IMG/VR virus record: IMGVR_UViG_3300032675_001017
Location: 1 to 21,313 of that record
DNA length: 21,313 bases
Reading direction: 5' to 3' (one strand)
Source: a virus
Shown: one piece after another, positions 3,826-21,190 of the stretch
How positions within the stretch are numbered: the first letter of the stretch is position 1
How the letters are laid out: every line of letters starts with the position of its first letter
Notes under the pieces: model-generated
What the model saw: the letters and a program-made list of their open reading frames with translations, nothing else
What the model was told of the DNA's origin: nothing
The model's database searches: none
Translations under genes and position numbers: made by a program

Positions 3826-4890
3826 ATGGCCATTACAAATAACAATAAAATAATAAGAAAATTAATAGTTGCCTTTGGCAATCTATTTAATAATATCTCT
3901 CTTGTTAGGTACAACACTGATGGTACAGAACAGGAAAGATTCTTAGTGCCAATAACATATGCACCAAAAGAATTGTATGTTCAGAGATTATCTTCTGACC
4001 CAGATTTAGATAAAAAAGTACAAATGACTCTTCCTAGAATGTCATATGAAATGATAGGGATGACATATGATTCTTCTAGAAAACAGAACACTAATATTAA
4101 AAATTTTGCACAATCTGGTTCTTTATTCTCACAATATAATCCAGTTCCATATAATTTTGATTTTTCATTATTGATTTACACCAGAAACTTTGAAGATGTA
4201 CATCAAATAGTAGAATATGTGTTACCGTTTTTTACTCCTGATTATACAATAAAAGTTAATCTAATACCAGAAATGGGCGTTACAAAAGAAATTCCCATTG
4301 TATTAAATTCAACTGATCGTGAAGTTCTGTATGAGGGTGATAGAGAATCTGACCCAAGAATGATTGTGTGGACATTGAACTTTACTGTTAAAGGGTTTGT
4401 GTTTGGTAATATATCTAATGCTAATAAAGGTTTGATATTAAATTCAATAACACACATCTATAACGAAATAACACCAGACTCTGTTATCTATTTTACTTTA
4501 GACCCAAATTCTGGAATGGGTACTTACACAATAGGTGAAATGGTTTATCAGGGGTATTCACTTACAACTGCAACTGCAACTGCACAAGTGGTGTCTTTTG
4601 ATGATACAAATAACAACTTGTATTTAAACAATATACAAGGAAATTTTGTATCTAACTTACCTGTAATTGGTGTTAAATCAAAAGCATCATACAAATTTAC
4701 ATACTACAGTGCAATCACCATAAGTGAAACTCCATCTGTAACAATTGATATACTATCTGAATATGCAAATACAATAATAGATGAAGCAAATAATCTACCA
4801 ATACAGATACCAGTAGATATATACGACTATCCAAATTTGGCAAATACGTCAGACAATTTCGTTATTGTTACAAAAATAACAGAAACATAA
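3826..4890 (+). CDS. 15: Tail sheath stabilizer and completion protein, gp15-like
   Basis: Residues 1-200 align well by eye with T4 gp15, the ring protein that caps the tail tube and sheath and joins the tail to the neck. Matching features include the IRKL...GNLFNNI start, RFLVPITYAPKE (40-50), TLPRMSYEMIGMTYD (68-82), SQYNPVPYNFDFSL (102-115), IYTRNFEDVHQIVEYVLPFF (117-136) and VWTLNFTVKGFVFG (181-194). T4 gp15 has 272 residues; this one has 354. The added part includes a small beta-rich module (GEMVYQGYSLTTATATAQV to GNFVSNLPVIGV, about 236-285) of a type seen in marine phage structural proteins. There is no good Shine-Dalgarno before the ATG, but the match at the N-terminus supports this start. 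In T4 the order is 13-14-15; here fiber and enzyme genes separate gp15 from gp13. Confidence 0.92.
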   Translation: MAITNNNKIIRKLIVAFGNLFNNISLVRYNTDGTEQERFLVPITYAPKELYVQRLSSDPDLDKKVQMTLPRMSYEMIGMTYDSSRKQNTNIKNFAQSGSLFSQYNPVPYNFDFSLLIYTRNFEDVHQIVEYVLPFFTPDYTIKVNLIPEMGVTKEIPIVLNSTDREVLYEGDRESDPRMIVWTLNFTVKGFVFGNISNANKGLILNSITHIYNEITPDSVIYFTLDPNSGMGTYTIGEMVYQGYSLTTATATAQVVSFDDTNNNLYLNNIQGNFVSNLPVIGVKSKASYKFTYYSAITISETPSVTIDILSEYANTIIDEANNLPIQIPVDIYDYPNLANTSDNFVIVTKITET

Positions 4891-4899
4891 AGGATCAAA

Positions 4900-7800
4900 A
4901 TGGCAGGTATAAAACTTTCACAATTACATAGACTAACATCATTAGATCCAGCATCTAATACCACTCTATTGTTAGCATCCGATGAGAGTTACCCTTATTC
5001 ATCTGTAACTTTTGGGTTGGACGCACTTTTCAATGCTCTAAACACATCATTAACCGCAGATGTATCACAGGCATTTAATAGAGCAAATGATGCTATCATA
5101 TTAGCACAGAACGCATATGATAATTCCAACACATATCTAGGTAAGATTGATTCTGCTAACACCTTCTTACAGGCAAATGATAGTCTGACACTTTCCAGAG
5201 CAATTCAATACACAAATTCTGTTGTATCTTCTAATGTTTCATATGTTTCTGGGGTAGATATTGCACAGAACACCAACATATCTAATACACAAGCTTGGTT
5301 GAGTTCCAACGTTGCTTACATTGCTGGCGTAGATGCTACCCAAAATACTAATATCAGCAATTTAAATACTTGGTTAAATTCTAATAACCAATATAACACT
5401 GGTGTAAATGCTAGTCAGAATACTAATATTACTAACTTACAAAGTAATTTAAGTTCCAACGTATCATATATTGCTGGTGTAGATTCCACTCAAAATACTA
5501 ATATTAGTAATCTTAATACATGGTTAAATTCTAACGTTGCTTACATTGCTGGTGTAGATTTAAGTCAGAATACTAACATAAACAACTTGAATGCATGGTT
5601 AAATTCTAATGTTGCTTATATTGCTGGTGTAGATGCTACTCAGAATACCAATATCAGTAATCTACAAAATGCCTTAAATTCTAATGTATCGTATAATGAT
5701 GGTGTTAATGTTTCCCAGAATACTAGCATCAGCAATTTAAATACTTGGTTAAATTCTAATGTATCATATGTTGCTGGTGTTGATTACACACAGAATACTA
5801 ATATATCTAACTTAGGTAATTGGTTAAATTCTAATGTATCATTTATTGCTGCTGTAGATGCTACTCAAAACTCATGGATTAGTTCTAATGTTGCATATTT
5901 TACGGGTGTTGATTTAAGTCAGAACACTAGTATTAGTAACTTACAAAGTGGTTTAAGTGCTAATGTTGTTTATATTGCTGGTGTAGATGCTCAACAAAAC
6001 ACATGGATTAGTTCTAATGTTGCATATTTTGTTGGTGTTGATAACAGTCAAAACACTAATCTACAAACAGCAAATACTTTCTTACAAGCAAATGATTTAT
6101 TAACACTATCATCTGCTAAATCATACACAGACACATCAATATCTGGATTAAACAATTCTATATTAACATATGTTGGTGGTGTAGATGCTCAACAAAACAC
6201 ATGGATTAGTTCTAATGTTGCATATTTTGTTGGTGTTGATGCTACTCAGAATACTAATATAACAAATTTAACAACTTGGTTAAATGCTAATGTTGTTTAT
6301 ACACAAAATATAAATGATAGTCAGAATACAAATATTAGTAATTTAAATACATGGTTAAGTTCCAATGTATCATATATTGCTGGTGTTGATTTAAGTCAGA
6401 ATACCAATATCAGTAATTTAAATACTTGGTTAAATTCTAACGTTTCTTATATTGCTGGTGTGGATTTAAGTCAGAATACTAATATTACTAACTTACAAAG
6501 TAATTTAAGTTCTAACGTTTCTTATATTGCTGGTGTGGATTTAAGTCAGAATACTAATATTACTAACTTACAAAGTAATTTAAGTTCTAATGTTGCTTAC
6601 ATTGCTGGTGTGGATGCTACACAGAATACCAATATCAGTAATTTAAATACATGGTTAAGTTCTAATGTTGCTTATATTGCTGGTGTAGATTTAAGTCAGA
6701 ATACTAATATCAGTAATTTAAATACTTGGTTAAATTCCAATAACCAATATAATACTGGTGTAAATGCTAGTCAGAATACAAGTATATCAAATTTACAAAG
6801 TGGTTTAAGCGCCAATTTACTCTACATCAAAGGGGTAGATGATAGTCAAAACAACAGTATAACTAATACTCAATCGTGGTTAACTTCTAATGTAGCATAT
6901 TTACAATCCATAGAAAATTCACAGAATACCTATATTTCATCCGTATTCAATACTGCCAACGTTGGAAATACTTTTGTCAATTCTGGTGGAACAGTTTTTG
7001 GCAGCGTCACTATATCCAATGATGCTTTGATTAAAGGAAACCTATCAGTATTAGGAACAACCACCACAACATATTCGTCATCTATTCAAGTAGGTGATTC
7101 ATTATTATTACTTGCAAACAATAATACACTATCAGATTCTGTTGATATTGGATTTGTTGGTACATATAACGTTAGTGGTAATGCATACACAGGACTTTTC
7201 CGTGATCCAATATTAAAAGAATACATCTTCTTCAAAAACTATACACCTAAAGTTCAGTCAAACACACTCATCAATATTGCTGATCCATCTTTTACATATT
7301 CAAATGTATATTCTGCATATTTCAAAGGAAATGTCATAGCTTCTAATGTTGTAGTTAATGGAACTGATATAATCAATTTCACAACATCTGTATTCAATAC
7401 TCAAAACACTAATATAAGTAACCTCAATAGTTGGTTAAATTCTAATATTGCTTATATACAGAGTATTAATAATGCTCAAAACACAAACTTACAGTCTGCT
7501 AACACCTTCTTACAAGCAAATGACTTATCAACATTAAATCAGGCAAATTATTATACTAATATAACAGTTGCTTCTAATTCTAGTTCTATATTAGCATATG
7601 TTGGTGGGGTGGATGCTCAACAAAATACATGGATCAGTAGTAATGTTGCTTACATTGCTGGTGTTGATGCTACACAGAATACATGGATCAGTAGTAATGT
7701 TGCTTACATTGCTGGTGTTGATGCAACTCAAAATACTAATATCAGTAATTTAAATACTTGGATTAGTTCTAATGTATCATATATTGCTGGTGTTGATGCT

Positions 7801-10218
7801 ACTCAAAATACCAATATCAGTAATTTAAATACATGGTTAAATTCTAATAACCAATATAACACTGGTGTAAACGCAAGTCAAAACACCAATATAACCACTA
7901 CTCAATCATGGTTAAGTTCTAATGTTGCTTATATTGCTGGTGTAGATTTAAGTCAGAATACTAATATAACCACTACTCAATCATGGTTAAGTTCTAACGT
8001 ATCATATATTGCTGGTGTAGATGCAAGTCAGAATACCAATATTGGTAATCTTAATACATGGTTAAATTCTAACGTTGCTTACATTGCTGCTGTAGATTTA
8101 AGTCAGAATACTAATATCAGTAATTTAAATACTTGGTTAAATTCTAACGTATCATATATTGCTGGTGTAGATTTAAGTCAAAACACTAATATAACCAATA
8201 CACAATCTTGGTTATCTGCAAATATTTCCTATATTGCTGGTGTAGATTTTACACAGAACACTAATATTAGTAATTTAAATACTTGGTTAAATTCCAACGT
8301 TGCTTATATTGCTGGTGTAGATGCTACTCAGAATACAAGTATCAATAACATTATTTCTTGGATTGGTGCTAACAATTCATATTTTCAAGGTATAGAGAAC
8401 TCACAGAATACTAGTATCACCAACTTGCAGAGTGGTTTAAGTGCTAATGTTGCTTATATTGCTGGTGTAGATGTTACACAGAATACAAGTATCACTAATT
8501 TGCAGAACGCATTAAGTGCTAACTTACTTTATATCCAAGGGGTAGACGTTTCTCAGAACTCTAGCATATCAGGACTGACTATACAGATTAGTTCTAACGT
8601 TGCTTATACTCAAGGGGTTGATGCTCAACAGAATACTTGGATCAGTGCTAATAATAGTTATTTCCAAGGTGTATTAAATGGACAAAATACCAGTATTGGT
8701 AATCTTAATACATGGGTAAGTTCTAACGTTGCTTATACTCAAGGGGTTGATGCTCAACAGAATACTTGGATTAGTTCTAATGTAGCATACTTCCAGGGTA
8801 TTGAGAATACTCAAAATACTAATATTACAACAGCAACCAATTTAGCACAGGGTGGATATAATAAAGCAAACCTGTCTATCAGTATACTTGGATGGCAACC
8901 AAATGCTGTGATATTTGCCAACTCTGGTGGTTATTTGGCAAATGATGCTTCACACATAGCATTCGTTACATCAAATAACACTTTAGTTGTTTCAAATATT
9001 TCTGTTCCGACAATATACACAACAGTGGGTGGTATTGTATTCCCAGATGGAACCACACAAACAACATCAACATATATTGCACCTGTTGATTTAACTGCTA
9101 GAGCAATTGCCCAATCAGCATTTATTCAGGCAAATACTGCATCAAACAATACAGTATATACTTTTGGTGTAGATGCAAGTCAGAATACTAGAATATCAAC
9201 ACTAGAAGCAAATACCATTTATACTTTTGGTGTAGATGCACAACAAAATACTAATATTACTGGTGTAGGTACATTTGCTCAAGCAGCATATAATACTGCA
9301 AATACTGATGTAACAAGTATTAATACTACAGCAGGAACATATGGGAGTACAACAGTTGTTCCAGTTATTACTTTACTTGCAAATGGTAGAGTTTCATCAA
9401 TAACAAATACTGCAATATCAACATCTGCTGGTAATTTAACTGGTACTATTCCTAATACAGTATTAGGTAATTCATCAATTTATGTTGGTACTACAGCAGT
9501 TGCTTTAAATAGATCATCAGCACCTCAAACATTAACTGGTGTGAGTATTGATGGTAATGCTGGTACTGTAACAAACGGTATATACACCACCAATTACAAC
9601 TCGTACTCACCAACACTAACAGGTGGCGGTGCTTCTGGTTCTTGGAGTATTAGTGTAACTGGTTCTGCTGGTTCTGTTGCAGCTTCTGGTATAACAGGAA
9701 CGATTCCTACTGCAACATTAGGTTCTGGTACCGCAAATACAACAACATATTTAAGGGGTGATAACACTTGGCAGGTTGTTTCTGCATCAGGTGGTGGTGC
9801 TACAATAACAAATGACAATTCAACCAATACCAATTATTACCTTGGTATGGCAGGTATTACTTCTGGTTCTTGGACTACTGCATATGTTTCATCAAATGAA
9901 TTGTATTTCAACCCAAGCACAGGAACACTTAATGCAACCATATTTAACTCATTATCAGATATATCATTAAAGGATAATATTACATCATTAAATAATTGTA
10001 CTGACATTATAAATATGGTAAATCCTGTAGGATACACATGGAAGAAATCTGGTAAGAAATCATATGGTGTAATTGCTAATGAACTTGAAAAGATACTTCC
10101 AGAATTGGTTTCAGAAAATGATGGAATTAAATCCGTAGAATATAACTCATTAATAGCATTCTTAATTGGTGCAGTACAAGAGTTATCTGATAGAATAGAG
10201 ATATTGGAGAATAAGTAA
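4900..10218 (+). CDS. Giant repetitive tail fiber (1772 aa) with S74 intramolecular chaperone
   Basis: The N-terminal module (GIKLSQLHRLTSL) resembles virion-attachment segments of marine phage fibers. From about residue 110 to 1310 runs a shaft of about 43 units built on VDxxQNTxIxNL, mostly 25 residues long (for example VDATQNTNISNLNTWL plus NSNVAYIAG) and in seven cases 18. A globular insert of about 140 residues interrupts it (about 690-830; GNLSVLGTTTTTYSSSIQVG, then an LFRD segment). After the shaft come Gly/Ser/Thr-rich beta-type modules, and an 87-residue S74 chaperone with Ser1686 and Lys1691 in SDISLK. S74 proteins are trimers that release the chaperone by self-cleavage, so a long trimeric fiber is expected. 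AGGA 7 bases upstream supports the start. The stop overlaps the next ATG by one base. Confidence 0.9.
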   Translation: MAGIKLSQLHRLTSLDPASNTTLLLASDESYPYSSVTFGLDALFNALNTSLTADVSQAFNRANDAIILAQNAYDNSNTYLGKIDSANTFLQANDSLTLSRAIQYTNSVVSSNVSYVSGVDIAQNTNISNTQAWLSSNVAYIAGVDATQNTNISNLNTWLNSNNQYNTGVNASQNTNITNLQSNLSSNVSYIAGVDSTQNTNISNLNTWLNSNVAYIAGVDLSQNTNINNLNAWLNSNVAYIAGVDATQNTNISNLQNALNSNVSYNDGVNVSQNTSISNLNTWLNSNVSYVAGVDYTQNTNISNLGNWLNSNVSFIAAVDATQNSWISSNVAYFTGVDLSQNTSISNLQSGLSANVVYIAGVDAQQNTWISSNVAYFVGVDNSQNTNLQTANTFLQANDLLTLSSAKSYTDTSISGLNNSILTYVGGVDAQQNTWISSNVAYFVGVDATQNTNITNLTTWLNANVVYTQNINDSQNTNISNLNTWLSSNVSYIAGVDLSQNTNISNLNTWLNSNVSYIAGVDLSQNTNITNLQSNLSSNVSYIAGVDLSQNTNITNLQSNLSSNVAYIAGVDATQNTNISNLNTWLSSNVAYIAGVDLSQNTNISNLNTWLNSNNQYNTGVNASQNTSISNLQSGLSANLLYIKGVDDSQNNSITNTQSWLTSNVAYLQSIENSQNTYISSVFNTANVGNTFVNSGGTVFGSVTISNDALIKGNLSVLGTTTTTYSSSIQVGDSLLLLANNNTLSDSVDIGFVGTYNVSGNAYTGLFRDPILKEYIFFKNYTPKVQSNTLINIADPSFTYSNVYSAYFKGNVIASNVVVNGTDIINFTTSVFNTQNTNISNLNSWLNSNIAYIQSINNAQNTNLQSANTFLQANDLSTLNQANYYTNITVASNSSSILAYVGGVDAQQNTWISSNVAYIAGVDATQNTWISSNVAYIAGVDATQNTNISNLNTWISSNVSYIAGVDATQNTNISNLNTWLNSNNQYNTGVNASQNTNITTTQSWLSSNVAYIAGVDLSQNTNITTTQSWLSSNVSYIAGVDASQNTNIGNLNTWLNSNVAYIAAVDLSQNTNISNLNTWLNSNVSYIAGVDLSQNTNITNTQSWLSANISYIAGVDFTQNTNISNLNTWLNSNVAYIAGVDATQNTSINNIISWIGANNSYFQGIENSQNTSITNLQSGLSANVAYIAGVDVTQNTSITNLQNALSANLLYIQGVDVSQNSSISGLTIQISSNVAYTQGVDAQQNTWISANNSYFQGVLNGQNTSIGNLNTWVSSNVAYTQGVDAQQNTWISSNVAYFQGIENTQNTNITTATNLAQGGYNKANLSISILGWQPNAVIFANSGGYLANDASHIAFVTSNNTLVVSNISVPTIYTTVGGIVFPDGTTQTTSTYIAPVDLTARAIAQSAFIQANTASNNTVYTFGVDASQNTRISTLEANTIYTFGVDAQQNTNITGVGTFAQAAYNTANTDVTSINTTAGTYGSTTVVPVITLLANGRVSSITNTAISTSAGNLTGTIPNTVLGNSSIYVGTTAVALNRSSAPQTLTGVSIDGNAGTVTNGIYTTNYNSYSPTLTGGGASGSWSISVTGSAGSVAASGITGTIPTATLGSGTANTTTYLRGDNTWQVVSASGGGATITNDNSTNTNYYLGMAGITSGSWTTAYVSSNELYFNPSTGTLNATIFNSLSDISLKDNITSLNNCTDIINMVNPVGYTWKKSGKKSYGVIANELEKILPELVSENDGIKSVEYNSLIAFLIGAVQELSDRIEILENK
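5236..8826 (+). repeat. 75-bp and 54-bp tandem coding repeats of the giant fiber shaft
   Basis: About 43 in-frame units encode VDxxQNT-type repeats. Most are 75 bp (25 residues); seven are 54 bp (18 residues), which lack a seven-residue segment. They fall in two blocks, about 5236-6950 and 7390-8826, separated by the globular insert. Many units differ only at synonymous or few sites, and stretches such as GTTGCTTATATTGCTGGTGT recur many times. Unit counts are by hand and may be off by one or two. Confidence 0.9.
9235..9365 (+). repeat. Second copy of the 131-bp segment shared between fiber genes
   Basis: This is the partner of 2762-2892, offset by 6473 bp. It marks the border between the shaft and the distal beta-type modules of the giant fiber. 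Confidence 0.85.
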
Positions 10219-11402
10219 TGTCAGTTGGTAATCCAAGTAACTTTCAAAAAGACGATCCAATATTTGGAAGTATAGATTTAGATGATGAGTATATTACTGA
10301 TCAATGGTTAGTTGATCAGTTTGTTGGAAATACTTTGTTTGCATGTGGATATAATGCAAATGGTCAATTAGGTAATGGAACAATAGTATATTATTCTTCA
10401 CCAATACAAGTGGGATCATTAACTAATTGGAAACAAGTTTCTTGTGGATATAAACATACAGCAGCAATAAAAACTGATGGTACTCTATGGACATGTGGAT
10501 ATAATATAACTGGAACATTAGGTAATGGAACAATAGTATATTATTCTTCACCAATACAAGTGGGATCATTAACTAATTGGAAACAAGTGTCATGTGGAGG
10601 CACCCATACAGCAGCAATAAAAACTGATGGTACTTTGTGGACATGGGGATATAATAATTGGGGAAATTTAGGTAATGGAACAGTAATAAGTTATTCTTCA
10701 CCAATTCAAGTAGGATCATTAACTAATTGGAAACAAGTTGCTTGTGGCGGCCGCCATATGGCATCAATAAAAACTGATGGTACTTTGTGGACATGTGGAT
10801 ATGGTCTTTTTGGTCAATTAGGTAATCCGCCGCAGACACTTCCTAGAAATTATTCTTCACCAGTACAAGTAGGAACATTCACTAATTGGAAACAAGTTGC
10901 TGGTGGAGCAATTCATACAGCAGCAATAAAAACTGATGGTACTTTATGGTCATGGGGGAATGGTACTAATGGTCAATTAGGTATTGGGGCAACACCAACA
11001 TCAAGAAGCAGTCCTACACAAGTAGGAACATTAACTAATTGGAAACAAATTGCTTGTGGAAGTTTGTTTACAGCAGCAATAAAAACTGATGGTACTTTAT
11101 GGTCATGGGGAGACTGCGCTGGAGGTCAATTAGGTAATGGAACAAATATCACATATTCTTCACCAATACAAGTAGGATCATTAACTAATTGGAAACAAGT
11201 TGCTGGTGGAACAATTCATACAGCAGCAATAAAAACTGATGGTACTTTATGGTCATGGGGAGGTAATGGTAATGGTCAATTAGGTAATGGAACAACAGTA
11301 AACTATTATTCACCAATTCAAGTAGGATTATTAACTAATTGGAAATATGTTAATGGTAATTATAATACTACAGCAGCAATACCTTTCGCAGATATAACAT
11401 AA
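10218..11402 (+). CDS. RCC1-type seven-bladed beta-propeller protein, probable adhesin (first of three)
   Basis: This is a 394-residue protein. Residues 1-38 are a short acidic leader with DLDDEYITDQWLV, similar in pattern to leaders of the two later propellers. From residue 39 there are seven repeats of about 50 residues with the RCC1 signature: G-x-L-G-N-G, SSPIQVG, TNWKQV, C/GG, HTAAIKTDG and TLW[TS][CW]G. Seven repeats match the usual RCC1 propeller. In eukaryotes RCC1 acts on Ran; nothing here suggests that, and the fold is better read as a binding scaffold. The position right after a fiber gene points to a receptor-binding or fiber-tip role, which is inferred. No signal peptide or membrane segment is visible. 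GGAG 8 bases upstream and a one-base stop/start overlap support the start and coupling to the giant fiber. Confidence 0.85.
   Translation: MSVGNPSNFQKDDPIFGSIDLDDEYITDQWLVDQFVGNTLFACGYNANGQLGNGTIVYYSSPIQVGSLTNWKQVSCGYKHTAAIKTDGTLWTCGYNITGTLGNGTIVYYSSPIQVGSLTNWKQVSCGGTHTAAIKTDGTLWTWGYNNWGNLGNGTVISYSSPIQVGSLTNWKQVACGGRHMASIKTDGTLWTCGYGLFGQLGNPPQTLPRNYSSPVQVGTFTNWKQVAGGAIHTAAIKTDGTLWSWGNGTNGQLGIGATPTSRSSPTQVGTLTNWKQIACGSLFTAAIKTDGTLWSWGDCAGGQLGNGTNITYSSPIQVGSLTNWKQVAGGTIHTAAIKTDGTLWSWGGNGNGQLGNGTTVNYYSPIQVGLLTNWKYVNGNYNTTAAIPFADIT
10332..11390 (+). repeat. 150-bp tandem coding repeats (7 RCC1 blades)
   Basis: There are seven units of about 150 bp, slightly variable. Units 1 and 2 share 72 exact bases (10367-10438 and 10517-10588). 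The variable part of each unit lies mainly around the two loops after TLWxxG and after GNG; the strands stay nearly constant even at third codon positions. Confidence 0.85.
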
Positions 11403-11420
11403 TTATTAGGGTTTATAGAA

Positions 11421-12101
11421 ATGAATTATATATTAGTAAAAAATCAAGAACAAGTATTTTTAGGTCCATTTGATTGGAAACCTAGATATATTCAATCTGA
11501 AATTGATCAATTAATTGAAGATGGTGAATTAAGTACATTTTATCAAGTTCCACCAGTAGAACAAGGTTATATTGATATTGGAGATGGGTTTGAAATAATT
11601 CCTATTACTGATTCATCTATACCTGCTATTGATCCTCTTTTTGAAGATCCTATTGGTCCTTTCTATACCTATGCAAATAATAATGCAACAGTTACTTATT
11701 CTAAACAAGATAGACCATTACATTTTATTAAATCTGATTTGATACAACTTGCTGGTTCAATAAGATATAACAATGAGGTTGCAGGAACAACTGCAAATAC
11801 TTCTGTTGGTTCTATTTCAGTTTCTACAGATAGAGATAGTAGATTACAATATTCCAACCTATTATCATCAATGGGGTCTAATACAATCAATTTTAAAACT
11901 GGTACTGAATTTGTCACATTAACCAGTAATGATATGCAGATTATTGTAAATACTATTCATAATCATGTTCAAGAACAGTTTGATTGGGAATTACAAACAA
12001 TTAATGAATTAAATACAATAGATAATATTGATGATTTTAAATCAATATTATTAAATAAATTAACTCCACCAACAGAGAATACTGGATTACCAAATGCCTA
12101 G
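11421..12101 (+). CDS. DUF4376-like protein, tail-fiber associated
   Basis: This is a 226-residue protein. The N-terminal half (MNYILVKNQEQVFLGPFDWK; about 1-85) looks like the small head domains of phage fiber-assembly or collar-associated proteins. Residues about 105-212 fit the DUF4376 pattern seen in such proteins: SVSTDRDSRLQYSNLLSSMG, INFKTGTEFVTLTSNDM, IHNHVQEQFDWE, then a helical end. The family has no firm biochemical function; it is common next to fiber and adhesin genes. It sits between the first two propeller genes and overlaps the second by 8 bases (ATG inside its last codons), so joint translation is likely. A TTAGGG lies 9 bases before the ATG. A chaperone or adaptor role for the propellers is a guess. 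Confidence 0.65.
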   Translation: MNYILVKNQEQVFLGPFDWKPRYIQSEIDQLIEDGELSTFYQVPPVEQGYIDIGDGFEIIPITDSSIPAIDPLFEDPIGPFYTYANNNATVTYSKQDRPLHFIKSDLIQLAGSIRYNNEVAGTTANTSVGSISVSTDRDSRLQYSNLLSSMGSNTINFKTGTEFVTLTSNDMQIIVNTIHNHVQEQFDWELQTINELNTIDNIDDFKSILLNKLTPPTENTGLPNA

Positions 12102-13326
12102 TAATTTTGATCAGTATCATCCATATACGGGATTTCAAGTAACTGACCCAAATACCAGTAATACTCAAGATTTAGGTCAAAGGTATACTACCAAATCTTA
12201 TTTACTTGATGTTTATCCTAATATTGCAAGTACTTTAGGTGCAAGAACAAGTCCTGGATTATGGACATGGGGACAAAATAATAATGGTCAATTAGGTAAT
12301 GGAACAACAACAGGTTATTCTTCTCCTATACAAATAGGAACATTAACCAATTGGAAACAGGTTTCTATGAATTCAAGCGGGGCAGGAATTAAAACTGATG
12401 GAACTGTATGGACATGGGGTTATAATTTTTTGAGTCAGCTAGGTATTGGAGTATATAATATAAATTATTCTTCACCAATTCAAGTAGGATCATTAACCAC
12501 ATGGAAACAAGTTTTTTGTGGATATAATAACATAGCATCATTAAAAACAGATGGAACTCTGTGGATGTTTGGTGGAGATAATAACTATGGCGAAATGGGT
12601 AATGGATCATCTGTTGTTATGTATTCTTCACCAATACAAGTGGGGGCATTAACGAATTGGAAACAAGTTTCTTGGGGATCTCAACATATAGTAACAGTAA
12701 AAACTGATGGAACTTTATGGACATGGGGAATTAATAATCAAGGTCAATTAGGACTTGGAACGGTAACAACATTTGGTTATTTTTCACCACTACAAGTAGG
12801 AACATTAACTAATTGGAAACAAGTTTCAAGTTTAAACAATTTTTCAGCAGCAATTAAGACAGATGGTACTTTATGGGCATGGGGAAACAATCAATATGGT
12901 CAATTAGGTAATGGGGCAAATGGTGTATATTATTCATCCCCAATACAAGTGGGATCATTAACTAATTGGAAACTGGTTTCCGTTGGAGGAAGACATTTAT
13001 CTGCTATTAAAACTGATGGTACATTATGGACTTGTGGATATAATGGTTGTGGTCAATTGGGTAATGGAACAGGAATATATTATTCATCCCCAATACAAGT
13101 GGGGGCATTAACTAATTGGAAACAAGTTGCTTGTGGATACCAACATGTTGTGGCAGTAAAAACTGATGGAACTTTATGGACATGGGGATATAATTTTAAT
13201 GGACAATTAGGTAATGGAACAACAACAACATATTCTTCACCAATACAAGTGGGATCATTAACTAATTGGAAACAAATTTCTGCTGGCAAAAATAATACAG
13301 CAGCAATTTCAGACGGATATATTTAA
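12094..13326 (+). CDS. RCC1-type seven-bladed beta-propeller protein, probable adhesin (second)
   Basis: This is a 410-residue protein. Residues 1-54 form a leader (MPSNFDQYHPYTGFQVTD, then DLGQRYTTKSYLLD) that partly resembles the other two leaders. Seven RCC1 repeats of 50-52 residues follow, with SSPIQVG, TNWKQV, KTDG and TLWTWG. Blades 1 to 4 are less regular than those of the neighbours; for example the third has GGDNNYGEMGNGSSVVMYSS and the first lacks the HTA element. The last three blades are close to those of the other two genes. The ATG lies within the end of the DUF4376-like gene. A binding role at the virion tip is inferred as for its neighbours. Confidence 0.83.
   Translation: MPSNFDQYHPYTGFQVTDPNTSNTQDLGQRYTTKSYLLDVYPNIASTLGARTSPGLWTWGQNNNGQLGNGTTTGYSSPIQIGTLTNWKQVSMNSSGAGIKTDGTVWTWGYNFLSQLGIGVYNINYSSPIQVGSLTTWKQVFCGYNNIASLKTDGTLWMFGGDNNYGEMGNGSSVVMYSSPIQVGALTNWKQVSWGSQHIVTVKTDGTLWTWGINNQGQLGLGTVTTFGYFSPLQVGTLTNWKQVSSLNNFSAAIKTDGTLWAWGNNQYGQLGNGANGVYYSSPIQVGSLTNWKLVSVGGRHLSAIKTDGTLWTCGYNGCGQLGNGTGIYYSSPIQVGALTNWKQVACGYQHVVAVKTDGTLWTWGYNFNGQLGNGTTTTYSSPIQVGSLTNWKQISAGKNNTAAISDGYI
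12256..13320 (+). repeat. 150-bp tandem coding repeats (7 RCC1 blades, second gene)
   Basis: There are seven units of 150-156 bp. Strand-coding segments such as TTAACTAATTGGAAACAAGT are the same as in the first and third propeller genes, while loop-coding segments differ. This gives many short stretches of identity between the three genes. Confidence 0.85.
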
Positions 13327-13330
13327 AATT

Positions 13331-13837
13331 ATGAAAAACATTATTATTTGTGACAACTTTTATAGTGATATTGAACCACTTTCTAATATCATTTCTACTA
13401 TGGAATTTGAAAGTGATATCTATGGAGAAGAAATAAAAGACTTCTCATATATCCCAGAACAATTACATAGTTTGTTTAATGGAATTCTAAATGAACCAGT
13501 AGAAATACAACCAAATACTGGTGTATTCAGAAAACCAAATTCAGCAGTTCTATTTGAGAATTTTTATCAACATGCATTATGGAAATGTATTGTGGCACTT
13601 GAAGATACTGTATTAAAAATACATGAACAAGAAGGTATTAAAACATTCTTTAATGTAGATAATGTTGAAGACTTTGTATTAAACAATTCTTTTGATTCTT
13701 CAAAATGGAATACTGTAAATTCAATAAATATCAAGAAAAATGATTTTGTTTTCATTAGACCTTGGTTTTGGCATAGTCTAGAAGAAAATAAATTAGTACA
13801 AGTATTTCTATTGAACCAAGAAATTAAGGAAGAATAA
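13331..13837 (+). CDS. Hypothetical protein, cupin-like or 2OG-oxygenase-like fold
   Basis: This 168-residue protein has a C-terminal segment, INIKKNDFVFIRPWFWHSLE followed by LVQVFLLN (about 133-162), that reads like the last strands of a double-stranded beta-helix, with His148 in the place of a metal-binding His. If it belonged to the Fe(II)/2-oxoglutarate oxygenases, an HxD or HxE pair would be expected near residues 71-80; there the sequence is SAVLFENFYQHALW, so the first His appears to be missing or shifted. It may therefore be inactive, use other ligands, or be a plain cupin. It lies between the second and third propeller genes, and its stop overlaps the next ATG by one base. No good ribosome site is seen. 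The gene is real judging by length and packing; the fold is a tentative reading. Confidence 0.5.
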   Translation: MKNIIICDNFYSDIEPLSNIISTMEFESDIYGEEIKDFSYIPEQLHSLFNGILNEPVEIQPNTGVFRKPNSAVLFENFYQHALWKCIVALEDTVLKIHEQEGIKTFFNVDNVEDFVLNNSFDSSKWNTVNSINIKKNDFVFIRPWFWHSLEENKLVQVFLLNQEIKEE

Positions 13838-15390
13838 TGGCACAGTTTCCATCGGGTTATACATTTTCTAGAACTGCTCAAAATTTTGTAATTTGGAGTG
13901 AACAATATATTACTCCTTATTGGGATGTTACATCATATCCTATGACTATTGTTCCTAATGCAACTACTGCGCCAGATGGTACGAATACTGCGTACTCTGT
14001 AACAGGCACCACCACAGGTGTCGGTGGTTTATTTGCACAAACTGTTTCAGCATCTACTGGTATAGGTTCTGGTATACAAACATCTTCAATATATGCCAAA
14101 GCAAACACCACAACACAGTTTACATTAAATTGTTACTATGGTGGAGATACCGAAGTTAATGTCACATTCACATTAACAGGAGCAGGATCTGCTACTGCTG
14201 GTGGAACGATTGTTAGTATCGGTAATGGGTGGTATAGATGTTCAATACAGACACCAGCAATGATAACTGCTAATGCATCATTTGCATATCGTGTATGGCC
14301 ACAATTAAGAGGTAATCTAGCAGCAGTTGGTTGTTACTTCTGGGGTGCTGCTGTAAATAATGGTTCTACTTTATTACCATACATCGGAACTCTAGATAAA
14401 CAATTAAATCAAAATTTTGGATCAGTTCCTGTTGATATGGCAGATATGTTTGTCCGTAAGGAATTATTTTTGAATGCTGGATTGTGGACATGTGGATATA
14501 ATAATAATGGAGGATTAGGTAATGGAACAACAGTAAACTATTCTTCACCAATACAAGTTGGTTCATTAACTAATTGGAAACAAGTTGCTGGTGGATTTGG
14601 ACATACAGCATCAATTAAAACTGATGGTACTCTATGGACATGTGGATCTAATCAATATGGTCAATTGGGTAATGGAACAACATCAAATTATTCTTCACCA
14701 ATTCAAATAGGATCATTAACTAATTGGAAACAAGTTTCTGCTGTATATTATCATACAGCATCAATAAAAACTGATGGTACACTATGGACATGGGGATGGA
14801 GTCTTTATGGTCAATTAGGTAATGGAACAATAGTATATTATTCTTCACCAATTCAAGTAGGAACATTAACTAATTGGAAACAAGTTGCAGGTGGTGGTTA
14901 TCATACAACATCAATTAAAACAGATGGTACTTTATGGACATGTGGATATAATGGTTCTGGTCAATTAGGTAATGGAACAATAGTATATTATTCTTCACCA
15001 ATACAAGTAGGATCATTAACTAACTGGAAACAAGTTGCTGGTGGATTAGTACATACAGCAGCAATAAAAACTGATGGTACTTTATGGACATGTGGATCTA
15101 ATCAATATGGTCAATTAGGTAATGGAACAACATTAAATTATTCTTCACCAATTCAAGTAGGAACATTAACTAATTGGAAACAAGTTGCAGGTGGTGGTTA
15201 TCATACAACATCAATAAAAACTGATGGTACTTTATGGACATTTGGATACAACAATTATGGTCTATTAGGTAACGGAACAACATTAAATTATTCTTCACCA
15301 ATTCAAGTAGGAACATTAACTAATTGGAAACAAGTTGCTGGTGGACTTTATCATACAGCATCAATTTCATCACCAGATTTACCTGCATAA
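13837..15390 (+). CDS. Carbohydrate-binding-like domain fused to six RCC1 blades, probable adhesin (third propeller)
   Basis: This is a 517-residue protein. Residues about 8-187 fit a beta-sandwich carbohydrate-binding-like domain frequent in phage adhesins: NFVIWSEQ, NATTAPDGTNTAYSV, SSIYAKANTTTQFTL, IGNGWYRCSIQTP and YFWGAAVNNGSTLLPYIGT. A linker with DMADMFVRKELFL (200-212) resembles the leaders of the other two propellers. From residue 215 there are six RCC1 repeats of exactly 50 residues, one fewer than in the two other genes. Blades 3 and 5, and blades 2 and 5, share long near-identical stretches, so the array was probably shaped by duplication and loss. Two binding units in one chain suggest a glycan-binding adhesin. 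This is the last gene of the adhesin block; a 48-base gap follows. Confidence 0.82.
   Translation: MAQFPSGYTFSRTAQNFVIWSEQYITPYWDVTSYPMTIVPNATTAPDGTNTAYSVTGTTTGVGGLFAQTVSASTGIGSGIQTSSIYAKANTTTQFTLNCYYGGDTEVNVTFTLTGAGSATAGGTIVSIGNGWYRCSIQTPAMITANASFAYRVWPQLRGNLAAVGCYFWGAAVNNGSTLLPYIGTLDKQLNQNFGSVPVDMADMFVRKELFLNAGLWTCGYNNNGGLGNGTTVNYSSPIQVGSLTNWKQVAGGFGHTASIKTDGTLWTCGSNQYGQLGNGTTSNYSSPIQIGSLTNWKQVSAVYYHTASIKTDGTLWTWGWSLYGQLGNGTIVYYSSPIQVGTLTNWKQVAGGGYHTTSIKTDGTLWTCGYNGSGQLGNGTIVYYSSPIQVGSLTNWKQVAGGLVHTAAIKTDGTLWTCGSNQYGQLGNGTTLNYSSPIQVGTLTNWKQVAGGGYHTTSIKTDGTLWTFGYNNYGLLGNGTTLNYSSPIQVGTLTNWKQVAGGLYHTASISSPDLPA
14479..15380 (+). repeat. 150-bp tandem coding repeats (6 RCC1 blades, third gene)
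   Basis: There are six units of exactly 150 bp. Segments 14854-14940 and 15154-15240 (offset 300) differ at only two or three bases, and TGTGGATCTAATCAATATGG recurs at 14641 and 15091 (offset 450). It is the most homogeneous of the three arrays, which suggests the most recent expansion or conversion. Confidence 0.88.
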
Positions 15391-15438: not shown

Positions 15439-16212
15439 ATGAAAAAGTACAATTTTATCTCTGGTCTCCCAAGAAGTGGAACCACCCTTCTTTCAACGAT
15501 TCTCAAACAGAATCCAAAGTTTGAAGCATCTATTTCTGGTCCTTTAGCAAGATTTACTAGAGCAGTTATTCAAGAATCATCTTCTCAGGGTGGTTATCGT
15601 TTTGAATGTCCACCAGAAAAACGCAAGAAACTTATCAATGGTTTATTTGAAAATTATTATGACGATCCTACCAAAGAAGTTGCTTTCAATACTAACAGAG
15701 GATGGGGATTACTTCTTCCTACCATCAAAGACCTTTATCCCGAATCAAAGTTAATTCTTTGTGTTCGTGATATTTCTCAAATTTTAAATTCATTTGAGTG
15801 GTTATTAAGAAAACAACCGTACGTTTTTTCTTCCATGTTTTCTCCAGAAGAAAATACTAATGTTTATACTCGTTGCGAAACATTGATGAATCCGGGAAGA
15901 ACTCTGGGGTTTGCTTATAATGCAGTTAAACAGGCGATTACTTCTGAATATAAATCTTCAATTATGATTATTGAATATGATAAATTAGCCAAGAATCCAG
16001 AGTTTATTATGAAGACTCTATATAATTTTATTGAGGAACCATATTTTGAACATGATTTTAATGACGTAGAAGCATCTTATACCGATTTTGATGAAGATGT
16101 CCAAATTGAAAATTTACATACTACTAGAAAAAAAGTAGAATTTAAACCGCAAGATATGATTATTCCTCCAGATATTCTTCAAATGGTGAAAAATATGGAA
16201 GTCTGGAAATGA
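15439..16212 (+). CDS. Sulfotransferase family protein
   Basis: This 257-residue protein should move a sulfuryl group from PAPS to an acceptor, most likely a sugar or peptide. The 5'-phosphosulfate loop is clear: SGLPRSGTTLLS at 8-19. The 3'-phosphate site fits CVRDISQILNS with Arg110 and Ser118 eight residues apart, as in the family. Length is normal for a compact bacterial or phage member. A mid-protein segment YDKLAKNPEF (about 177) also fits the family. It opens a tightly packed operon of sugar-modifying genes, and its stop overlaps the next start as ATGA. The acceptor is unknown; phage fibers or host surface glycans are both possible. The start is supported by AGGAG and by the close position of the PAPS loop to the N-terminus. 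Confidence 0.85.
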   Translation: MKKYNFISGLPRSGTTLLSTILKQNPKFEASISGPLARFTRAVIQESSSQGGYRFECPPEKRKKLINGLFENYYDDPTKEVAFNTNRGWGLLLPTIKDLYPESKLILCVRDISQILNSFEWLLRKQPYVFSSMFSPEENTNVYTRCETLMNPGRTLGFAYNAVKQAITSEYKSSIMIIEYDKLAKNPEFIMKTLYNFIEEPYFEHDFNDVEASYTDFDEDVQIENLHTTRKKVEFKPQDMIIPPDILQMVKNMEVWK

Positions 16213-16940
16213 TTTATAATATCACAAAATCCACATTTGGTACTTTAGGTACTAGATGTGGAGACCTGATTGCTATTTGTAATATCATTGAATATCTTAG
16301 AAAGACCAAAGAACAACATATACAATTTTACATTCCAAAATATGTTCTAAATCAAGACGATTATATTCATAAATTCTATGATTATCTTTGTGATATCACA
16401 GATTACTTTTCCAAAGAAGAAGGGTTTCTAGAACTACCATTCTTCAATGTTTCGGTATGGGATTTTAGATCCATCATTGGTGACCATGTAATCATTAAAA
16501 ATCCAATTGGAAACATGGATTATAAAGTCGTTATATTTCCACTATATGATGCAGAATATAATAATCAAAGAAATTGGTCTATTGATTGTATGAATGATAT
16601 TTTAAATGAATGTAGAACGAAATATCCTCATCACAGAAAAGTTATTTGCTCAAAAGAACCACCACCAGATGGACTATTTGATTATTCTGGATTTGAAATA
16701 TCAACAGATTTCATAACAAATATTCATCATATAGAAACTTCTATGGTATTTTATGGTGGTGATACTGGTGTTTCTCACTTTGCATCTGTATTGGATAATG
16801 GTCCAGAATTGAATTATATATATTCAAATAGGTGTTTATTACACACAACTCCTTTCTATTCTATAGGTGAAAATAGTAAAGGAAAATTGAGAACATTTTG
16901 GTTAGATTTTATGGGAGACGCGAAGTGGGACTTAAAATAA
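16209..16940 (+). CDS. GT9-like (heptosyltransferase-like) glycosyltransferase
   Basis: This is a 243-residue protein. RCGDLIAICNIIEYLRK at 16-32 resembles the N-terminal GD-motif of GT9 glycosyltransferases, and FYGGDTGVSHFASVL at 181-195 matches the C-terminal motif that contacts the nucleotide sugar. At 243 residues it is shorter than typical heptosyltransferases (about 320-350), so it is a reduced GT-B enzyme or has lost part of one Rossmann domain. It follows the sulfotransferase with an ATGA overlap and overlaps the methyltransferase. Substrate unknown. A nonenzymatic sugar-binding role cannot be excluded because of the small size. Confidence 0.65.
   Translation: MIYNITKSTFGTLGTRCGDLIAICNIIEYLRKTKEQHIQFYIPKYVLNQDDYIHKFYDYLCDITDYFSKEEGFLELPFFNVSVWDFRSIIGDHVIIKNPIGNMDYKVVIFPLYDAEYNNQRNWSIDCMNDILNECRTKYPHHRKVICSKEPPPDGLFDYSGFEISTDFITNIHHIETSMVFYGGDTGVSHFASVLDNGPELNYIYSNRCLLHTTPFYSIGENSKGKLRTFWLDFMGDAKWDLK
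16913..16917 (+). promoter_or_regulatory. Ribosome binding site GGGAG that selects a GTG start
   Basis: GGGAG lies 7 bases upstream of GTG 16925, inside the end of the GT9-like gene. It favours GTG 16925 over the TTG at 16898, which lacks such a site. Confidence 0.6.
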
Positions 16941-17518
16941 ATTTAGGTAGTGGGTTTAAAAGAATTGATGGATTTCTTAATGTAGATGATGATCCTTTGG
17001 TTGAACCAGATTATATTGTCAATCTAGATGATGTTAATATCAAACTTCCCTTTGAAGACAGTTCTGTAGAAGAAATCAGAGCACACCACATTCTTGAACA
17101 TATCGGTGATGGATTCATTCCATTAATGAAAGAGTTATATCGTGTATCAGAACATGGATGTATTCTTGATATAATTTCTCCAAACGAAACCCACTCAGCT
17201 TTTCATGGCGATCCAACACATAAAAGAGCAATCAATGTAAATGTGATGTACATGTTTTCCAAAAATTACATCAAGTACCATATAGAAAAACACAATTCCA
17301 GTACTGGAATGGCACTTAAATATGATATCAATTTTGATGTAATCCATTATGAATTTGAATATGACCAATTCTATGTTCCTATGCTAGAGGACTTCTTCAA
17401 AAGAAAAGAAGAAGGGAAAGTATCACCAGAAGAGGATTTTGGTGTCCAACGACTTCTTAGAGAAGCAAATAATGTAGCAATGAATAATATTATCAAATTG
17501 GTAGCAGTCAAGGAATAA
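16925..17518 (+). CDS. SAM-dependent methyltransferase (class I)
   Basis: I choose GTG 16925, giving 197 residues beginning MGLKINLGSGFKRIDGFLNV. This places the SAM-binding motif LGSG directly at the N-terminus, as in many sugar-operon methyltransferases of the Methyltransf_11 type. LPFEDSSVEEIRAHHILEHI (about 41-60) is the matching motif around strand 4, and MKELYRVSEHGCILDIISPN follows as the next helix and strand. The reaction is transfer of a methyl group from S-adenosylmethionine; the acceptor is probably a sugar, from context. It overlaps the upstream gene by 16 bases and is followed after 2 bases by the TPR-glycosyltransferase. The frame is open further upstream to a TTG at 16898, but the residues added there are not family-like. 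Confidence 0.8.
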   Translation: MGLKINLGSGFKRIDGFLNVDDDPLVEPDYIVNLDDVNIKLPFEDSSVEEIRAHHILEHIGDGFIPLMKELYRVSEHGCILDIISPNETHSAFHGDPTHKRAINVNVMYMFSKNYIKYHIEKHNSSTGMALKYDINFDVIHYEFEYDQFYVPMLEDFFKRKEEGKVSPEEDFGVQRLLREANNVAMNNIIKLVAVKE

Positions 17519-17520
17519 CT

Positions 17521-18945
17521 ATGGATCAGAATGATACTTATGGTGAAGGTGACCCTTTAGTTTTTATAGTCAAACAACTAATTAAAGGTCAATATGAAGA
17601 ATTAGCAGAACAAGTTGTTGATGTTTTTGCAAATGCAGCAATACATATTGAATCTGTTAATACTATATCAAAACTTTATTATGATGTCAGAAATTATGAC
17701 AAGGCAGAGAAATTTACATTAAAAACATTGGATATGTGTGAGACGAATGAACAGAGATATAATGTTCGTGCCAATTTGGGTAAATTGTATAATAATTTTA
17801 ATGAACCTGTCAAGTCGTTATTTTATTCAAAACAGAATCTTGCAGTTAATCCAAACAATCCAGATACTTTATTGGAAATGGTATTCTCCTATTTTCTCAA
17901 TGGTCAAAAAGAACCAGCAGAAAAAATTCTTAGAGAACTGAAAGAAAGAGAACATGAACTTGGAGAAAGACACAGAAATATCGTAAATTTCAATCTTGGA
18001 ACTTATGATATGGAAGCAGGACATTTCTTGAAAGGTCTTGGTGGATTCCTCATTAATGTTAAAAAACTAGAACTTTGGTTTAACCATGAAGAAATTCCAT
18101 TGAAGTATTGGACTGGTGGGTTATATCCAGGCAGAACTTTGATTTTCCATATGAATGGTGGTGGATTTGGTGATTCTTTTATCGCAATCTCATATTGGAA
18201 TAAATTAAAAGCAGCAGGATTTAATCCAGTATATTCCAATTCCAATAAAGATATTGTTGATATATTCAATCGTTGTGGTTACACTTCTGTTACTGATTGG
18301 AGAGATGTCAAAGATCCAGATGCATTATGGTGTTTTGCATTTGAAGTTCCTTTATATCTCAACATGAAACCACAAATAATGTTAACCGAACATTATTTGT
18401 GGGCATCAGATCAAGCAAGAGAAAAATGGAGTTGGTTAAAGGAACGTAAGAAACTTAAAGTAGGTGTCAGGTTCATTGGTAACATGCGAAATAATGCTTT
18501 GCTTTATAGACATATTGAACTTGACAATATGATGAATTTCTTACATGAAACTTTTGAGGGACAAGATGTAGAATACTATTCACTACAAAAGGGTGATGGT
18601 GAAGAAGAGGCAAGGAAATGTCCAGAATTAATTGATGTTGCAGGTCAAATCAATTCTTTTGATGATACTATTGCATTGATAGAAAATCTAGATATAGTTA
18701 TTTCCACATGTACTTCTGTGGTTCATATTGCAGGTGCAGTTGGAACCAAAACCGTAGTGTTTGTTCCTATAGCCGCATACTTCACATATTTAACACCGAC
18801 ATTAGAAGGAAGACCACCACACACAAGTCCTTGGTATAGTGACAGCTTCAGATTCTTTAGACAAGTAAAACCAAAAGTTTGGGATGAACCCATGTTGGAA
18901 GCAAAAGAATACATTAAAGGACATTTACTTGAAAATAATGAATAA
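17521..18945 (+). CDS. TPR-repeat glycosyltransferase (GT9-like C-terminal domain)
   Basis: This is a 474-residue protein. Residues about 20-185 are helical with tetratricopeptide-like features (SKLYYDVRNYDKAEKFTLKT, NLGKLYNNFNEPVKSLFYSK). Residues about 195-460 form a GT-B domain: W-TGG-LYPGRTLIFHMNGGGFGDSFIA at the N-terminal side, and IDVAGQINSFDDTIALIENL followed by STCTSVVHIAGAVG (395-408) at the nucleotide-sugar site. Such TPR plus glycosyltransferase fusions often act on proteins, with the TPR part holding the substrate; that is known for OGT, and only an analogy here. AGGA 6 bases upstream supports the start. The last codons overlap the next gene by 8 bases. Fiber proteins are attractive but unproven targets. 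Confidence 0.8.
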   Translation: MDQNDTYGEGDPLVFIVKQLIKGQYEELAEQVVDVFANAAIHIESVNTISKLYYDVRNYDKAEKFTLKTLDMCETNEQRYNVRANLGKLYNNFNEPVKSLFYSKQNLAVNPNNPDTLLEMVFSYFLNGQKEPAEKILRELKEREHELGERHRNIVNFNLGTYDMEAGHFLKGLGGFLINVKKLELWFNHEEIPLKYWTGGLYPGRTLIFHMNGGGFGDSFIAISYWNKLKAAGFNPVYSNSNKDIVDIFNRCGYTSVTDWRDVKDPDALWCFAFEVPLYLNMKPQIMLTEHYLWASDQAREKWSWLKERKKLKVGVRFIGNMRNNALLYRHIELDNMMNFLHETFEGQDVEYYSLQKGDGEEEARKCPELIDVAGQINSFDDTIALIENLDIVISTCTSVVHIAGAVGTKTVVFVPIAAYFTYLTPTLEGRPPHTSPWYSDSFRFFRQVKPKVWDEPMLEAKEYIKGHLLENNE

Positions 18946-20410: not shown

Positions 20411-21190
20411 ATGGCAGATATAACTTCAAGAGTAGATTTTAAAAATTATTGTCTTCGTAGACTTGGTTTTCCAGTAATAGAAATTAACGTAGATGATGAT
20501 CAAATAGAAGACAGAATTACCGATGCTATTCAATATTTTGTTGATAGACATGCTGATGGTACACAGAAAATCTATTATGTTCGTTCATTAACAGCACAAG
20601 ATTTGACTAATAGATATTTAGATTTAAGTCCAACTGTTGCTGTAGACGATCATGGTAATCATGTGGATATTGTTGGTGTTACACGTATATTTCCTATTAT
20701 GGATTCACAAGCAACCATCAACATGTTTGACTTGAGATATCAATTACGTTTAAATGAACTCTACGACTTCACCTCTGCCTCATACATCAACTATACACTC
20801 ACACAACAACACTTACGATCACTAGAGATTATGTTCACTGGTGAGGTTCCTATTCGCTTTAATAGACATATGAAAAAACTCTATATTGATTGGGCATGGG
20901 GTTCTCAAGAAGCACCAGCTGGAACAATTGTTGTTGCTGAATGTTATGCTACTTTGAATCCTGATGCATATCCTTGGGTGTATAATGATAGATGGTTAAA
21001 GGAATATGCCACAGTACTTATTAAAATGGCATGGGGTGCTAACTTAAAGAAGTTCAATAATATTCAACTACCAGGTGGTGTTACGCTCAATGGTGATAAA
21101 ATTTATGATGAAGCAAATCAGGAAAAACTGAGACTTGAAGATGAGATGGAGTCACAACATGGTGGTGTTTTGGAATTTTTCTTAAATTAA
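20411..21190 (+). CDS. 13: Neck protein, gp13-like
   Basis: This is a 259-residue protein. The N-terminal segment (YCLRRLGFPVIEINVDDDQI, then EDRITDAIQYFVDRHADGT; 13-51) is the hallmark of gp13 neck proteins of T4-like marine phages; length is close to theirs and below the 309 residues of T4 gp13. In T4, gp13 with gp14 forms the neck that closes the DNA-filled head and accepts the tail. The C-terminal part (ATVLIKMAWGANLKKFNNIQ, then LPGGVTLNG and a helix ending LEFFLN) also fits. A weak AGAG lies upstream, and a late-promoter-like motif is close by. In T4 gp14 follows; here the next frame is a GIY-YIG endonuclease, 3 bases after the stop. Confidence 0.88.
   Translation: MADITSRVDFKNYCLRRLGFPVIEINVDDDQIEDRITDAIQYFVDRHADGTQKIYYVRSLTAQDLTNRYLDLSPTVAVDDHGNHVDIVGVTRIFPIMDSQATINMFDLRYQLRLNELYDFTSASYINYTLTQQHLRSLEIMFTGEVPIRFNRHMKKLYIDWAWGSQEAPAGTIVVAECYATLNPDAYPWVYNDRWLKEYATVLIKMAWGANLKKFNNIQLPGGVTLNGDKIYDEANQEKLRLEDEMESQHGGVLEFFLN

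Follow-up and report, generated by a model that had tools for sequence, protein, structure and literature searches.

A three-slot set of RCC1-type propeller genes in a T4-like freshwater phage, likely diversified by recombination

The window analyzed here, that is, the whole 21,313-nucleotide stretch of the viral record IMGVR_UViG_3300032675_001017, comes from a T4-like freshwater phage, as shown by the gp15-type tail sheath stabilizer and the neck protein that lie around the block under study. Features whose coordinates are written with two dots are all on the plus strand. The T4 gp15-type stabilizer (3826..4890; PF16724, E 2.9e-64) is followed by a giant fiber of 1772 aa with a C-terminal S74 intramolecular chaperone (4900..10218; PF13884, E 1.4e-11; phrog_5668, tail fiber), the end of which, at 10218, coincides with the start of the first of three RCC1 genes. 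Slot 1 (10218..11402; PF00415, E 4.7e-83) consists of a leader at approximately 10218-10331 (DLDDEYITDQWLVDQFVGN) and a 7-bladed propeller at approximately 10332-11378; slot 2 (12094..13326; PF00415, E 8.7e-69) combines its own leader (DLGQRYTTKSYLLDVYPN) with 7 blades at approximately 12259-13308; and slot 3 (13837..15390; PF00415, E 7.4e-70) has a third leader (PVDMADMFVRKELFLNAG) and, in this contig, 6 blades at approximately 14482-15363. Between slots 1 and 2 lies a DUF4376, tail-fiber-like gene (11421..12101; PF14301, E 3.9e-7; phrog_10508, tail fiber), and between slots 2 and 3 an orphan ORF of 168 aa (13331..13837) for which searches of Pfam and PHROG gave no family match. Slot 3 is followed by a sulfotransferase gene (15439..16212; PF13469, E 8e-14; E 4e-30 against gp345 of the isolate cyanophage S-SRM01), and on the far side of the block the neck protein (20411..21190; head-tail adaptor Ad2, phrog_211, E 6.5e-39) matches those of T4-like phages. 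No annotated phage matched the window in a near-DNA search. The original prediction placed three RCC1 propeller genes behind a giant fiber at 10218-15390; this held, given the PF00415 matches and the S74 fiber that abuts gene 1, but its account of the block was incomplete, lacking the DUF4376 gene and the orphan ORF.

The 20 RCC1 repeats mapped in the window (7+7+6 blades) satisfy the definition of an RCC1-like propeller (PF00415 or PF25390; tandem repeats of about 50 aa above the gathering score, 7-bladed), with gene 3 having 6 blades. AlphaFold predicts a 7-bladed propeller for the slot-1 protein with confidence (mean pLDDT 90.4), and its nearest folds in the PDB, with TM scores of about 0.8, are UVR8 (0.81-0.86), HERC1/HERC2, RPGR and RCC1; the beta-lactamase inhibitor BLIP-II (1jtd_B) is also among the fold matches. 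For the 6-bladed gene 3 the blades are confident and the N-terminal domain is poorly modeled. This domain (13873..14388) is related to the head spike fiber of RcGTA (phmmer, 6tb9_F3, Rcc01080, E 2.6e-7) and to the tail proteins of phrog_5939 and phrog_11922. A Pfam scan of the three genes found RCC1 repeats and no NACHT domain, and none of the three matched the T4 gp38 family in Pfam or PHROG.

At the DNA level, the blades resemble each other far more closely than expected by chance, forming several 150-bp repeat arrays (TRF scores 504-1414). Best-matching blades in the window are 73-92% identical, and exact runs of 33-51 bp are common to different genes, so that the description of the strand-coding DNA as shared almost base for base was partly right and too strong. 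In all three gene pairs of the window, the number of shared 24-mers exceeded the codon-shuffled expectation, with none of 40 shuffles, built from the genes' own codon usage, reaching the observed value.

Relatives were gathered by a search of viral contigs with gene 1, which produced 75 loci, to which we added S-SRM01. In most of the 75 loci, three RCC1 genes are arranged as in the window. The blade counts of complete proteins lie at or near multiples of seven, with 7 blades in 109 of the 135 distinct proteins and 14, 21 or 28 in others. Fused multi-propeller proteins (14, 20-21, 27 and 28 blades) were seen in L016, L014, L032 and L033, at equivalent positions or just upstream, and L037 has a second slot-3 gene. 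Each slot has a distinct leader of about 35 aa, with the consensus DLxxxYITDxWLVDQFVGN in slot 1, DLGxxxVTKxYLLDVYPN in slot 2 and DFDDxFVRxELFxxGN in slot 3. When slots were labeled by gene order only, because labels based on leader patterns would make the test circular, 64 of the 69 leaders had their closest match in their own slot (23 non-redundant loci). In S-SRM01, whose host is Synechococcus KCZYC6 and whose three RCC1 proteins are gp335, gp337 and gp344, the order is fiber, RCC1 with a slot-1 leader, a DUF4376-like gene (E 4e-18 to its counterpart in the window), RCC1 with a slot-2 leader, other genes, RCC1 with a slot-3 leader and sulfotransferase. Given that order and leaders are retained across the loci and in this isolate, the three RCC1 genes are old paralogs whose order is fixed and whose N-terminal leaders are conserved and specific to each slot, rather than products of recent local duplication. 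The first propeller of S-SRM01 has 6 blades, so 6-bladed forms occur in an isolate genome. None of the slot leaders was found on a non-RCC1 ORF in the fetched loci, which gives no sign of heads of another type on these anchors.

RCC1 itself was the main route by which relatives were recovered. Among loci fetched through gp15 and gp14, the RCC1 set was present in only 5 of 71 and 7 of 78, respectively, which indicates that the propeller set is optional, one choice among fibers. Bacterial hosts were also considered as a source of the genes, an idea that was set aside; the peptide patterns used gave a single distant match in 84,980 bacterial and archaeal species genomes.

Several features of the neighboring genes bear recording in their own right. 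The region 15439-20369, between the propeller block and the neck gene, includes the sulfotransferase, methyltransferase-like and TPR/glycosyltransferase-9-like genes and further unknown genes; downstream of slot 3, S-SRM01 has sulfotransferase, glycosyltransferase and nucleotide-sugar genes. At the position of the 168-aa ORF, L015 and L016 show a gap of equal size, and comparison of this ORF with the 2OG-Fe(II) oxygenase of S-SRM01 lent no support to their equivalence. Within the DUF4376 gene, positions 11540-11598 show 7 differences in 59 bp from the sister contig L018, most of the adjoining sequence being identical; this patch resembles a recombination tract. The end of the neck gene (20512-21190) differs from L018 at about 40 positions, mostly synonymous and limited to that gene, which could reflect either recombination or a chimeric contig end. 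The two S74 fibers (4900-10218 and 1058-3772) both contain arrays of 54-75-bp units (75 bp in the giant fiber), and these look homogenized as well.

Comparison of leaders and propellers across the 23 loci reveals opposite patterns of relatedness. Propeller identity is 0.632 within a genome as against 0.542 between genomes for the same slot and 0.541 for other slots, whereas leader identity is 0.159 within a genome, 0.365 between genomes for the same slot and 0.173 for other slots. Accordingly, slot labels change 7 times on the leader trees and 36 times on the propeller trees, and repeats group by genome, not by ortholog, as defined for the HNWD genes of fungi. A scaffold peptide tends to be common to the three genes of a phage and distinct among lineages (SPIQVGSLTNWKQV in the window, TPVTTAGGTNWKQV in others and TPVTTFAGGTNWKQV in S-SRM01). 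Exact 24-mers were shared above every one of the 40 codon shuffles in 40 of the 69 gene pairs. Thus, RCC1 propellers evolve in concert inside one phage, and their scaffolds are homogenized by exchange.

Closely related phages diverge in the DNA of the propeller and are nearly alike outside it. Where flanking proteins are 84-95% identical, the RCC1 proteins are mostly 55-84% identical. In the comparison of L033 with L037, DNA identity is 94-100% up to the first blade, falls to 65-80% across propeller 1 and returns to 100% directly after; similar edges are seen in slot 2 of these two phages and in the pair L028/L029. The pN/pS values for L033 and L037 are 0.033/0.219 in the flanks, 0.03-0.05/0.04-0.16 in the leaders and 0.20-0.23/0.48-0.52 in the propellers, and in the closest pairs synonymous divergence is about 0.5 in the propeller as opposed to 0.16-0.33 in the flanks. 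Because synonymous change is raised as well, which selection alone would not accomplish, we conclude that divergent sequence was imported by recombination. Moreover, blade orthology is lost and blade order is scrambled: in L033 versus L037 only 2 of 50 blades have their ortholog as the closest DNA match, in the window versus L016 none of 20 do, and in both comparisons most of the best-matching blades are other blades of the same genome.

At the finest scale, individual events can be discerned. Over 10 kb the contigs L019 and L023 are 99.9% identical; they are set apart by the clean in-frame loss of one 150-bp blade, 79% like its neighbor, that left a chimeric blade, and by four SNPs within 8 bp of one top loop. 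The window and L012 show 6 differences over 15,082 bp, 5 of which are nonsynonymous SNPs clustered in 59 bp of blade 5 of slot 1 (10950..11008). A search for donors of this patch among the blades and all fetched loci left two of the five alleles without a donor, so that point mutation, or a donor outside the sample, contributes as well. In L018, gene 3 has 7 blades, the additional one being an exact 150-bp copy, and the difference between 6 and 7 blades may therefore represent assembly collapse in other contigs. Short-read assembly of repeats is indeed error-prone; the main tests depend on sequence differences of a kind that assembly would hardly create, and on a single isolate. The RCC1 genes of L009 and L011, which come from other samples, are identical to those of the window, and the alleles of L254 and L255 are identical as well, which argues against a per-generation hypermutator and indicates that change is not fast on that time scale. 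A reverse transcriptase (PF00078) above the cut-off was found in none of 20 related records, several of which exceed 150 kb and some of which are fragments.

Most affected by amino acid change are the loops on a single face of the propeller. In the slot-1 model, every blade is a four-stranded antiparallel meander. One face, denoted top, carries the A-B loop (blade columns 10-23) together with the C-D loop (42-44), and the opposite, bottom face carries the blade linker (columns 1-4) together with the B-C loop (30-35); the assignment of faces is inferred from the antiparallel strand order in the model. Across eight close pairs, the frequency of residue differences was 0.50 in top loops, 0.16 in bottom loops and 0.23 in strands, reaching 0.71-0.85 at columns 10, 12, 13, 21, 23, 43 and 44. 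At the hypervariable columns, pN/pS was 1.29 in the window and 1.03 overall, compared with 0.34-0.41 in the scaffold; these columns were picked after the entropy was seen, and the ratio is merely suggestive of positive selection, which remains a possibility. Since the leader joins the propeller ahead of strand A, on the side of the conserved face, the variable face should point away from the anchor, an inference that rests on strand order, not on coordinates.

Taken together, these results largely support the original prediction of a recombination-driven propeller adhesin set and add to it the anchored slots and concerted evolution. The concentration of variation in loops held, with the excess in top loops making the alternative of conserved loops false, as did the shuffling of blade order and, in the 20 related records, the absence of a reverse transcriptase. 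Variation by recombination between blades and genes is supported, the homogenization of scaffolds within a phage having been missed. The claim that leaders are variable failed, as they are slot-specific anchors. The adhesin role stays an inference from the gene neighborhood and one homology, in the absence of virion data.

The nearest analog of this set is the HNWD family, het-d, het-e and het-r, of Podospora anserina, with WD-repeat propellers in which repeats are exchanged within and between genes, scaffolds are homogenized and top-face residues are selected (PMC1805685, PMC2873952). In both cases, propeller repeats are alike within and between genes and evolve in concert, a constant scaffold supports a variable top face, repeats are gained and lost, and conserved non-repeat domains preserve gene identity. 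However, the HNWD proteins are fungal STAND allorecognition proteins with WD40 repeats subject to RIP mutagenesis, whereas the phage set consists of RCC1 blades encoded in a tail block, with short docking leaders and no NACHT domain. By analogy, then, the phage set would work alike, yet its protein family and its biology are different, and it is not a member of HNWD.

Known phage adhesins share with the RCC1 set the logic of a fixed scaffold and a variable surface, but not the mechanism. The T4-type gp38 tip adhesins have conserved glycine-rich motifs and hypervariable segments and are spread by recombination. As in the propellers, conserved scaffold motifs lie between hypervariable loops, but gp38 (structural work in PMC12892980) is a polyglycine sandwich encoded by a single gene, in contrast to 7-bladed propellers encoded by three genes with exchange between blades. 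Adhesins diversified by retroelements (Mtd type; tentaclins, PMC10743442) likewise present one variable face of a fixed fold on a receptor-binding protein; in the phage set, by contrast, no reverse transcriptase passed the cut-off in those 20 records, synonymous sites change and blades move. Recently amplified, highly repetitive RCC1/BLIP-II propellers, with a few viral members, have been traced to amplification from single blades (PMC9218822), and, as here, they are of RCC1 type and differ in blade number among paralogs. Term searches of that paper found no mention of phages and no "gene conversion" wording, and its relevant sections describe neither slot-anchored sets nor face-specific hypervariability. 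The jumbo coliphage phAPEC6 similarly carries several RCC1-like genes, eleven in total, proposed to order DNA (PMC7247149); unlike the present analysis, the relevant sections of that report contain no analysis of loops, leaders or recombination. In the literature searched, we found no description of a slot-anchored phage propeller set.

We consider it likely that the block is a three-slot receptor-binding propeller set of a T4-like phage, diversified by recombination. No virion or binding data are available, and the adhesin role, host-surface binding and virion location are all inferred from the gene neighborhood and the RcGTA head-spike homology. An alternative that retains recombination but restricts it to allelic import, with whole propellers swapped between co-infecting phages through the conserved leader and the downstream gene and no exchange of slots or blades inside a genome, accounts for the sharp identity edges exactly at the propeller ends and for synonymous divergence that is raised inside the propeller alone. 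It appears unlikely, because it would preserve the slot signal across genomes, of which almost nothing is seen, and leaves unexplained the scaffold peptides common to all three genes of a genome, the excess of exact DNA sharing between slots and the best-matching blades in other genes of the same genome. Still less plausible is point mutation with diversifying selection on loops, under which the likeness of scaffolds would reflect purifying selection and codon bias, and recombination would have no special role. Five of the six SNPs between the window and L012 are nonsynonymous and fall in one blade, and pN/pS is about 1-1.3 at hypervariable columns, as this model would have it, but it is contradicted by the raised synonymous divergence of propellers (about 0.5 versus 0.16-0.33 in flanks), by orthologous blades that are not best matches and by the existence of whole-blade indels.

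Other alternatives concern function. The proteins could be secreted or intracellular binders, and not virion adhesins, with variable host proteins as their targets, as might serve superinfection exclusion or counter-defense; the RCC1-like BLIP-II is a known protein binder that inhibits beta-lactamase and matches the fold, and no virion data are at hand. Against this possibility, which we deem improbable, tail genes flank the set on one side and a neck gene on the other, the S74 fiber comes right before it, the order is kept in distant relatives, slot 3 bears a head-spike-fiber domain, and some phage RCC1 proteins found by BFVD matches are annotated as tail fiber proteins. A role in organizing DNA, implied by the family name, by database labels ("regulator of chromosome condensation", the PHROG category of DNA metabolism) and by the suggestion made for the eleven phAPEC6 genes, can be all but ruled out: loops hypervariable on one face and slot-specific leaders are ill-suited to binding invariant DNA, the neighborhood is one of tail fibers, and the suggestion in PMC7247149 was based on the eukaryotic name only.

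Under the favored reading of a recombining adhesin set, each leader would dock its own propeller at its own site on the tail or fiber, with the variable face outward. Homologous recombination between near-identical strand-coding stretches would move, convert, add and delete blades, either inside one of the three genes or from one to another, and would also bring in propellers from co-infecting relatives. Scaffolds would remain interchangeable, and selection would retain those loop combinations that bind current host surfaces, so that the rewriting of propellers probably lets the phage change what it sticks to. A bolder interpretation, towards which we lean by a narrow margin, is that this is a phage counterpart of the repeat-based recognition repertoires of fungi and animals: a three-slot RCC1 set, widespread among aquatic phages of the T4-like group, whose interchangeable propellers are docked by fixed leaders and whose new receptor-binding faces arise, without a retroelement, from gene conversion within the genome together with blade shuffling.

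Phage RCC1 proteins are currently filed in PHROG families 7220, 4219 and 16766 under "DNA, RNA and nucleotide metabolism", a label that probably misleads automatic annotation, given that the present data suggest host recognition; if our interpretation is correct, the genes now assigned to DNA metabolism would move to that category. The cultured S-SRM01 carries the whole set, which makes the idea open to bench testing. Hypervariability in phage adhesins is known to arise mainly through diversity-generating retroelements, site-specific inversions and exchange of fiber-tip segments. Interchangeable propellers on fixed anchors, kept recombinable through concerted evolution and seen in many aquatic phage contigs, would, if confirmed, constitute a further route to adhesin diversity.
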